Part shown: piece after piece, positions 1 to 2,673 of the stretch
Position numbering within the stretch: position 1 is the first letter of the stretch
Layout of the letters: each line of letters starts with the position of its first letter
NCBI GenBank assembly: GCA_021796435.1
Contig: JAJYXM010000016.1
Location: 626,625 to 690,624, forward strand
DNA length: 64,000 nt
From: a bacterium
GTDB taxonomy: Bacteria > Patescibacteriota > Patescibacteriia > 2-12-FULL-60-25
Reading direction: 5' to 3'
The notes under the pieces: generated by a model
Seen by the model: the letters and a program-made list of their open reading frames with translations, nothing else
Told to the model about the DNA's origin: nothing
The model's database searches: none
Position numbers and translations under genes: made by a program

Positions 1-1060
1 GACGATTTTTTTGGTCAAGAATAAACTGCTCGTTACCGTTCATTGAAACTCGATTTCAGCCAAAAATGTCCAGGTGCTTCCCAGAGCTGGTCTCACGGAC
101 AAAGGGTGATGCCGCAAGGCTAACCCGGTCCTACATGCGCGCAAGCGTGAAAAAGTGAGGCTGCAACAGCTCGGGCGGCGTTCCTGACCCCAGGCGGTGG
201 GCGAAAGCTCACGTAAGCAGACGTGTGCGACGCGACAGCGAAGCACTCGTCGTAAGTCTTGAAAGGGGCTCTAGGGACTAGTCGGAGTGGCCTTCGGGTC
301 AAGCTGGCGAAACTGAAGCAACTGGCATGGAGGCTGGTCGTGTGGCGTTTGTGGGGCAGGAGGTGTTAGTGACCGATGGGTCGGCACCGATTGCTTTTGA
401 CGCGGTCTAGGCGTGCGTCCCTTCAGTGGGCATGAAGGAGTCGGGAAGGAAAGAGCTCGATGTCCGAGTGCGTCAAGACACGTCAGGATGGACCTGTGGT
501 CCATGCACGACGGCACAAGGCCTGTGAGAGATACTGTCGGATCTGTAGGATACTTCCCTCCTGGGGGGTGGATGGGCACGAAGGATCGCGCCGCAAGGTG
601 CACCGAAGTGACGCATCGCCTCCTCAACCATAGGGTCGGCCTACATGACGTGCCTTTAGGCCGTCACGCAGCAACGATACGTAGCCTGAAAAGCAAGCCA
701 AAAGCTTGAAGGGCGAGCGCGTTGCCGTCCACCTCTATACCGCAGGCAAAAAGCGGCGTCACGAGCCGTGCGGATAGGTTCGACGAACCGAATGGAGTGT
801 GGATTCGTTGAGTGCGGATTCAGCAGGAAAGCTTCCCAGCATGCGCGTCATGGCAAATGCGCGGCTAGGGGAGAGTTCTCTCGGAGACGTTAGGGATAGC
901 TGATTAAGTTCGGCTGCTGATGCGAGGCAGGCCTCATCAGGGGTGTCCGAAGAGCCACTCGGTCAACAACCACCAGACCGAATCTCGATGGCCCCGCCCT
1001 ATACGTTCTTTCTTCTACTATGCGAGCGTCCCCGATACAGGTGACGCTCGTTTCTTTTTT
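1..1060 (+). ncRNA. Large structured noncoding RNA, family not recognised
   Basis: No convincing protein is encoded here, but the stretch is dense in hairpins closed by stable tetraloops. Nested helices GGAC/GTCC, GGGT/ACCC and GCC/GGC close on a GCAA loop (97-131). A six-pair stem closes on GAAA (197-212), GGCC/GGTC on TTCG (289-300) and GCGCC/GGTGC on GCAA (588-601). Two further hairpins lie at 488-504 and 694-708. The unit ends in an intrinsic terminator at 1023-1060. The 5' end may be near 46, behind a weak TTGGTC/TACCGT promoter at 11-39, or outside the window. I saw no RNase P, tmRNA, rRNA, SRP or group II domain V signature. That it is one transcript is inference. Confidence 0.55.
1023..1060 (+). 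terminator. Intrinsic terminator of the structured RNA
   Basis: CGAGCGTC (1023-1030) pairs perfectly with GACGCTCG (1043-1050) around a 12-base loop and is followed by TTTCTTTTTT. This is a textbook plus-strand Rho-independent terminator with no coding gene before it, which supports a transcribed RNA upstream. Confidence 0.8.
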
Positions 1061-1161
1061 GCGTCTGATCCCGTCCTCTGTCGGCATACGACCGAGTCGT
1101 AGGAAACATCCGTCGAAAGCGAGCATAAACGCCAAGCGTCAAGTGCAGCACATAGCGACCT

Positions 1162-1197
1162 GCCCGCCATCGCTACGCTCAGGCGTTGCGGGCGGGG
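1162..1197. repeat. GC-rich inverted repeat (CCCGCCAT...GCGTTGCGGGCGGG type)
   Basis: The arms GCCCGCC and GGCGGGG flank a variable centre followed by GGCGTTGC. The same arms and the GGCGTTGCGGGCGGGG block occur on the other strand at 63807-63839 with a different centre, so this is a dispersed repeat and not a chance hairpin. Confidence 0.6.
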
Positions 1198-1299
1198 GCG
1201 TAGTGAGTCTCGACGGATTTTCCCGGCGAGTGGAGTCTAGCCGGCTCTTTTGGCGCCACCTTTTGTAAAAAGGTGGTAAAAAGATGCAAAAAGATTTCT

Positions 1300-1331
1300 G
1301 GATCCCGGATCAAGTCCGGGATGACAAAGAA
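1300..1331. repeat. Palindromic repeat, GATCCCGG/CCGGGATGAC family
   Basis: GATCCCGGA and TCCGGGATG form an inverted repeat ending in ATGACAAAGAAA. Relatives lie at 5697-5723, 5783-5836, 35402-35470, 36070-36106 and 48770-48807. This copy lies just downstream of glyA and could fold in its 3' untranslated region. Confidence 0.75.
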
Positions 1332-1344
1332 ATGAAAATTTTAT

Positions 1345-2673
1345 TTATACCTCAACCGGGAATCTGTCGCAGAGCATCTTGACCTCTGCGGCGATATCGG
1401 AATAGAAAGCGTCCTGCAGGCTTGCGCGGAATTCCTTGAGCAGCGCGAGGCGTGATTCTTTGTCTCCCGGAAGCTGTACATCTTTGATTTTTTCGGCCAC
1501 GCGGGACATGAAATCGGCGATGAGCGCCATTTCGTCTTTGCCCATGGCGCGCGTCGTGACTGCCGGAGTGCCGAGGCGTAGGCCGCTGGGATAGAAAGGC
1601 GTGCTGGGATCGCCGGGTATCATGTTCTTGTTGGTGTAGATATGCGCGGCTTCGAGGGCTTCATGCAAAAACACGCCGCGGCCGTTGCCACCAGGCGTCA
1701 GGTCGACGAGCAACAGGTGATTATCGGTACCTCCGGAAACTAACTTGAAGCCATGTTCGATCAGGCCGTCGGCCAAGGCACGAGCATTCTCCACGATGCG
1801 TCGAGAATAATCCTTGAATTCCGGCTGTGATGCCTCGTGTAACGCGACGCCTATGGAGGCGATAGCGTTCATGTGCGGACCGCCTTGTAACCCAGGTATG
1901 ATGGCTTTATCTATCTTTTCCGGCAGTTCCGCGTCCTTGGCCAATCCTTTCTCGGTCACCATGATCATCGCGCCGCGCGGACCGCGTAGCGTCTTGTGCG
2001 TCGTGGTCGTGATCAGATGTGCGAAGGGCGCTGGGGAGGGATGTGCGCCGCCGACGATAAGTCCGCTGATATGCGAAACGTCAGCGACAAGATAGGCGCC
2101 GATTTCGTCAGCGATTTTCCCGAAACGTTCGAAATCTATCAGACGCGGCAGGGCCGTACCGCCGCACCAGATCAGCTTGGGTTTATTCTCTTGAGCGGAT
2201 TTTTCGAGCGCTTCGAAATCTATCTGCCCATCGGGCAATACGCCATACGGTACGCTTTTCCAGAATTTTGAAGTCGCGGAGAATTTCCAGCCATGCGTCA
2301 GATGACCTCCGTGCAGCAGATCAAGTCCCATGAAAGCGTCTCCAGGTTCGAGTAGGGCGAAATAGACGGCGAAGTTAGCCGGACTGCCGGAATAGGGCTG
2401 TACGTTGACGTAGGGAACGCCAAAAAGAGATTTGGCGCGGTCTCGCGCTAGATTCTCCACCTTGTCGACGGCTATATTCCCGGAGTAGTAGCGTTTGCCC
2501 GGATAGCCTTCGGCATATTTGTTGGTCAGAGATGATCCGAGGGCTTCCATCACAGCAGGACTGACGTAGTTTTCGCTGGGGATGAGCGCTAAGCCGTCAC
2601 GCTGGCGTGTTTGTTCGAGCTTCAGGAGCTCGGCCATCTGCGGATCTTTTTGATCGAGAAAATTGTATTGCAT
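1345..2673 (-). CDS. glyA: Serine hydroxymethyltransferase
   Basis: A PLP enzyme that interconverts serine and glycine and supplies one-carbon units on tetrahydrofolate, in the cytosol. The 442-residue length fits the family. The PLP lysine is K227 in TTTTHKTLRGPRG; the N-terminal IPSENYVSP block and the EGYPGKRYYSGN block are also typical. The usual Ala-Tyr-Pro-Arg stretch near residue 175 reads ALPR, a Tyr-to-Leu change seen directly. The ATG at 2673 matches the family N-terminus; no strong Shine-Dalgarno sequence precedes it. It stands alone, divergent from the acyltransferase-like gene, and its 3' end borders a palindromic repeat. Formyl-tetrahydrofolate from this pathway would feed the fmt gene elsewhere in the window. 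Confidence 0.96.
   Translation of the reverse strand: MQYNFLDQKDPQMAELLKLEQTRQRDGLALIPSENYVSPAVMEALGSSLTNKYAEGYPGKRYYSGNIAVDKVENLARDRAKSLFGVPYVNVQPYSGSPANFAVYFALLEPGDAFMGLDLLHGGHLTHGWKFSATSKFWKSVPYGVLPDGQIDFEALEKSAQENKPKLIWCGGTALPRLIDFERFGKIADEIGAYLVADVSHISGLIVGGAHPSPAPFAHLITTTTHKTLRGPRGAMIMVTEKGLAKDAELPEKIDKAIIPGLQGGPHMNAIASIGVALHEASQPEFKDYSRRIVENARALADGLIEHGFKLVSGGTDNHLLLVDLTPGGNGRGVFLHEALEAAHIYTNKNMIPGDPSTPFYPSGLRLGTPAVTTRAMGKDEMALIADFMSRVAEKIKDVQLPGDKESRLALLKEFRASLQDAFYSDIAAEVKMLCDRFPVEV

Follow-up and report, generated by a model that had tools for sequence, protein, structure and literature searches.

The 64,000-nt window analysed here (C1:626625-690624; the genome measures 1.63 Mb, and its congeners carry the label Candidatus Uhrbacteria or Patescibacteria) opens with ~1.06 kb of plus-strand DNA between folD and glyA that holds no ORF common to its homologues, and the question raised by this locus is what such an interval encodes. 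Patescibacteria are streamlined and mostly uncultured. To our knowledge, bacteria have few large structured RNAs besides rRNA, RNase P RNA and tmRNA, and every one of them came as a surprise.

Flanking genes were identified with Pfam as folD upstream and glyA (SHMT) downstream, both on the minus strand; the neighbourhood, which also includes a hexapeptide transferase, is made up of ordinary genes of the chromosome. Judged from its boxes, the promoter is sigma-70-like and the gene starts slightly outside the window: the -35 box TTGACG has its first 2 bases ahead of position 1 and straddles the window edge, for which reason the promoter scan gave no match here. A promoter of the form TTGAC[A/G], 16-18 nt, TA-type -10 box was present in all ten members of the family examined. 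The RNA start at ~35 is an estimate, placed 7-8 nt past the -10 box, and yields an RNA of ~1,025 nt as far as the terminator. The canonical terminator described in an earlier note on this DNA was located at the end of this span as a GC-rich stem with arms CGAGCGTC and GACGCTCG followed by TTTCTTTTTT. The longest ORFs in positions 1-1060 are of 118 aa (minus strand) and 98 aa (plus strand, GTG start), neither of them common to the homologues, and no similarity was detectable among the longest ATG ORFs (17-100 aa) inside the homologous RNAs; the earlier statement that ~1,000 bases carry no protein was borne out, and a conserved reading frame, which had been named among the findings that would speak against a structured RNA, was not found in the comparison across homologous RNAs. 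On these boundaries, ~35-1060 is predicted to be a stand-alone non-coding RNA gene on the plus strand between folD and glyA (Table 1). Between the RNA terminator and glyA (window 1300-1330), TGGATCCCGGATCAAGTCCGGGATGACA looks like one of the dispersed bacterial repeats built around a palindrome. A dispersed repeat unrelated to the RNA is the palindrome GCGAGGCATGCCTCG followed by CCCCTAC, of which G006 has many copies and G000 and G036 fewer.

Table 1. Positions in the window of the RNA gene and its predicted elements.
Feature	Position	Strand	Basis or remark
RNA gene, whole	35..1060	+	promoter-to-terminator span; no ORF in common; homologues at folD|glyA
Promoter	1..27	+	-35 TTGACG, 17-nt spacer, -10 TAAACT at 22-27
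5' domain, variable	35..518	+	holds four GNRA/UNCG hairpins; absent in G023, the shortest member
Loop-strand pairing, 5' strand GGCCUGU	519..525	+	inside conserved motif GGCCUGUGAGAGAU; alignment A7
P2 5' arm GAGAGA	526..531	+	directly 3' of the CUGU strand in six members
P2-enclosed variable domain	532..876	+	distance from CUGU strand to hairpin b varies
P2 3' arm UCUCUC	877..882	+	
Four-way junction, outer helix, 5' arm GACGUUAGGG	886..895	+	unconstrained local fold
Hairpin a of junction	897..916	+	same place, different sequence in every genus; local fold
Hairpin b, UGAUGCGAGGCAGGCCUCAUCA	918..939	+	covariation in stem and in loop-strand pairing
P.last, last junction helix	941..995	+	local fold; begins 0-4 nt past hairpin b in 10/10 members
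Outer helix, 3' arm CCCUAUACGUU	997..1007	+	local fold; opens conserved pyrimidine-rich tract
Intrinsic terminator	1023..1060	+	CGAGCGUC...GACGCUCG + UUUCUUUUUU

The fold energy of positions 60-1059 was -422 kcal/mol, compared with -389 +/- 8 for dinucleotide shuffles (z = -4.0), and z ranged from -2.3 to -6.5 in the ten members tested, all of which were included in this range. Hairpins with GNRA or UNCG loops were counted where the stem had at least 4 bp; the RNA in the window has six (loops at 141, 203, 261, 293, 593 and 893) against 1.3 expected, a number reached by 1 of 300 shuffles, and the ten members together have 51 against 9.4 expected (maximum 21 among 300 shuffles). The GNRA/UNCG-type hairpins and further stems that had been noted from the letters alone are thus real; they lie mostly in the variable periphery, and the conserved core had not been singled out.

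Whether the RNA belongs to a known family was examined with Rfam. The whole window gave no match at gathering threshold, and relaxing the limit to E <= 10 added nothing but a snoRNA model on the opposite strand (E = 0.19); window positions 1-1400 gave no covariance-model match in Rfam 15, which includes GOLLD, ROOL, OLE, HEARO and the group I and II introns; and in ten loci (this RNA and nine homologues, covering all members but G015) the one match at E <= 3 was a chance hit that lay beyond the RNAs. The earlier assignment to no recognised family accordingly stands for the window and these nine homologues. Motifs of RNase P RNA and tmRNA had been reported as not visible in the interval, and both genes lie elsewhere in the same genome: the only RF00010 match of the genome is at C1:1266348-1266945, and the tmRNA gene is at C1:955626-956024 (RF00023 / ARAGORN). 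The RNase P RNA is unusually long, covering ~598 nt where the model has 367 positions, and its score of 85.8 bits falls below the cut-off of 100; structured RNAs seem to be enlarged in this lineage.

Such enlargement lends some colour to a reading of the RNA as a highly derived housekeeping RNA (SRP RNA or 6S RNA) beyond the recognition of the Rfam models, as does the failure to find an SRP RNA elsewhere, either with a hand-made domain IV descriptor over 94% of the genome (1.52 of 1.63 Mb of G000:C1) or with Rfam over 420 kb. The domain IV motif itself (CAGG-stem-GNRA-stem-AGCAG) is, however, missing from the RNA, AGCAG being absent from 9 of the 13 RNAs scanned; tmRNA and RNase P RNA are accounted for; and the nine homologous loci gave no Rfam match at E <= 3. 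The SRP rival is weakened, not closed, and a derived housekeeping RNA is regarded as very improbable.

Homologues were recognised in ten other species of one family-level clade, Candidatus Uhrbacteria, so that at least eleven species carry the RNA: with the genome of the window, members are G000, G006, G007 and G008 (genus g1), G010 (g5), G015 (g8), G020 and G021 (g13), G022 and G023 (g14), and G024 (g15). Most of them have nearly no sequence in common and share an architecture. BLAST with the whole RNA against 41 genomes reached one congener only, in patches of 72-83% identity. Synteny at folD|glyA gave the RNA in two further species of g1, marked by GGCCTGTGA and GCGAGGCAGGCYTCG; a pattern scan of GTDB genomes gave a fifth member, G024, from another genus; covariance models of the 3' module (R1-R3) added G022, G020 and G010 and also matched G024; G021 and G023 were found in the region upstream of rpsA; and the folD|glyA interval of G015 held the eleventh member. 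Other R1-R3 hits (G349, G140, G038, G004, G001, G036 and others) were coding or chance, and a combined descriptor run over ~0.49 Mb of loci returned seven members plus three coding false positives. The folD-glyA intervals of G037 (L240) and G016 (L018) carry a promoter and were not counted, having a different loop pairing and failing the junction test. From promoter to terminator these two span ~300 nt, with junction-like folds, and may be diverged members.

Lengths of ten members run from 416 to 1,383 nt, the short ones being G023 (~415 nt) and G010 (~430 nt), so that "kilobase-scale", as the RNA had been called, is apt for this species (~1,025 nt) and fails for the family (~415 to ~1,380 nt). 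In the same ten, 2-572 nt separate the start from the CUGU strand and 160-645 nt separate that strand from hairpin b; the hairpin and T tract that end every member lie 106-166 nt past the start of hairpin b, and only this 3' module is near-constant in size. Tetraloop-capped variable domains occupy both the region 5' of the strand and that between strand and junction. All ten have the promoter, RRYCUGU, a complementary CAGRY loop, a nearby P.last and the terminator; G015 has the same save the exact strand motif. The order in the family is promoter; RRYCUGUGA, the conserved strand; P2 (six members) around a variable domain; the junction, whose middle hairpin bears the CAGRY loop complementary to the RRYCUGUGA strand; and terminator. 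A pyrimidine tract (1005-1019 here) precedes the terminator in all members.

Members were labelled by letters, A being the RNA in the window. In A, C, D, F, I and J, P2 starts immediately 3' of the CUGU strand and closes shortly ahead of the outer helix; it beats at least 95% of shuffles in each of these but A. In the unconstrained local folds of A, B, C, D, H, I and J, hairpin a and P.last flank hairpin b, which forms the middle branch. By a fixed criterion, 8 of 10 members have the four-way junction (flank shuffles: 36 of 2,000), as does G015 (0 of 200 shuffles), which makes 9 of 11 members overall by unconstrained fold against 1.6% of shuffles; in F and G it is incomplete in the local MFE. 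The outer helix has a lineage-specific sequence (GACGUUAGGG/CCCUAUACGU here, GAGAAGG/CCUUCUC in G021). An invariant GAGG/CCUC was considered as an inner stem and dropped, as G023 and G010 show no need for it. Helices besides hairpin b were recognised by folding rather than by a formal test such as R-scape.

Covariation was assessed in alignment A7, made with MAFFT from the strand motif plus hairpin b and left unedited, which comprises ten sequences and few independent events. RRYCUGU is kept in all ten, and the loop segment GCAGGCC of hairpin b (927-933) is complementary to 519-525. Changes on both sides were found in 3 of 7 pairs of the loop-strand helix and in 2 of 4 pairs of the hairpin-b stem; 97% of cells are paired, compared with 26-54% when partners are slid, and the five doubly changed pairs, a number reached by 2 of 500 shuffles, compare with a shuffle average of 1.9 and with none or one for a slid partner. 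Versions of the loop-strand helix are GGCCUGU/GCAGGCC, GGUCUGU/GCAGACC (G020) and GAUCUGU/GCAGAUC (G021). A per-sequence test of loop complementarity gave Fisher P = 0.24, a 6-7 nt upstream complement being expected by chance, and was not used as evidence; covariation counts for P.last, whose arms were trimmed by hand, are illustrative only. Support for the proposed loop-strand pairing comes from the alignment, with the changes seen in two or three lineages. Compensatory changes, the absence of which had been named as counting against a structured RNA, are present in both this pairing and the hairpin-b stem. The conserved core is predicted to be the CUGU strand together with the 3' four-way junction, with the GNRA/UNCG hairpins mostly peripheral and variable.

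Sites of the gene differ among genera: the four g1 species, g5 and g8 have it at folD|glyA, g13 and g14 have it upstream of rpsA, and g15 has it elsewhere. The RNA is therefore not tied to one neighbour gene. An antisense or local regulator, acting on a read-through glyA-folD message or, in g13 and g14, on rpsA just downstream, was weighed against this distribution. Many genera lack an RNA between glyA and folD and have the two genes almost side by side on one strand; in g1, g5 and g8 the RNA gene lies between the two on the opposite strand, and in g13 and g14 it sits immediately 5' of rpsA, in the same orientation. Yet the core is kept though the neighbours change, to unrelated genes in g15, its own terminator ends the RNA ahead of rpsA, and antisense action does not need a covarying core. 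A role that is purely local agrees poorly with the differing sites; antisense action on the glyA-folD message is possible for part of the family, as is some local role opposite glyA-folD or upstream of rpsA, and as an account of the RNA local regulation is judged unlikely.

Differing loci, large size and a loop-strand pairing also recall the remnant or autonomous part of a mobile element (an intron, a GOLLD/ROOL-type phage RNA or an omega RNA) carried by chance. Against this, the neighbours are ordinary chromosomal genes, the RNA is single-copy and one genus keeps one site. Hairpin-pattern matches in IMG/VR carried no partner strand, the Rfam searches gave no group I or II intron, HEARO, GOLLD or ROOL match, and no tRNA was found in the 64-kb window, which lacks the phage or prophage and tRNA-array setting of GOLLD and ROOL. 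An origin of this kind is held to be highly improbable.

The hairpin pattern was further searched in 381 genomes of the class and 84,980 GTDB genomes; outside the clade, all matches either had no matching strand or lay in coding sequence, and in the 381 genomes no members with these motifs were found outside the family. G015 shows that the motifs are not fixed, so these searches do not establish absence elsewhere. On an S1-protein tree, carriers fall in both halves of the family with four changes of state, a pattern that fits an ancestral gene moved, lost or diverged past recognition, and is no proof of one.

Taken as a whole, the comparison demonstrates an apparently independent gene with a structured core and a fast-evolving periphery, the core being a predicted match between the CUGU strand and the loop of a 3' hairpin in a four-way junction. 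The gene probably encodes a structured, non-coding, trans-acting RNA that stands alone and founds a new family of one Uhrbacteria clade. The core would fold as a long-range pseudoknot or pair between two molecules as in GOLLD; the peripheral domains would be tolerated expansions, and the RNA would serve as a structural RNA (RNP scaffold or RNA-only oligomer) rather than as an mRNA leader.

A trans-acting structural RNA like OLE, ROOL and GOLLD is most likely. GOLLD is likewise large and ornate, its 3' part conserved and its 5' part far more variable, and has a loop-to-strand contact revealed by covariation (PMC12286853); its kissing contact, first seen by covariation, is an intermolecular bridge (PMC12286853). 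Unlike GOLLD, the present RNA has no Rfam similarity, is chromosomal, lies outside phage or tRNA islands and has a smaller conserved core. ROOL is a large non-coding RNA with pseudoknots whose protein partner is not known (PMC12286853), and resembles in this the RNA described here, which is likewise large with a predicted pseudoknot, has no ROOL match in Rfam and is not phage-linked. OLE is similarly chromosomal, large, structured and stand-alone, outside the rRNA/RNase P/tmRNA set, but has no sequence or model similarity to the present RNA. RNase P RNA (bacterial class A) and tmRNA are also stand-alone large structured RNAs, the former enlarged in this clade, but both sit elsewhere in the same genome.

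Searches of open-access literature found no RNA like this one described in Patescibacteria, and it is classed here as a new family in the loosely defined group of large structured RNAs of bacteria. More tentatively, the family may have no described relatives and be ancestral to the clade, its pairing joining molecules into an RNA-only oligomer or building the active core of an RNP or ribozyme, in bacteria that are adapted to symbiosis and have small genomes. The ~415-nt G023 and ~430-nt G010 RNAs are minimal targets for structure determination and the search for partners. Covariance libraries miss fast-evolving RNAs, which synteny combined with folding can find. In this clade the sequence has been almost wholly replaced and the RNA is still kept across several genera, which implies a function.
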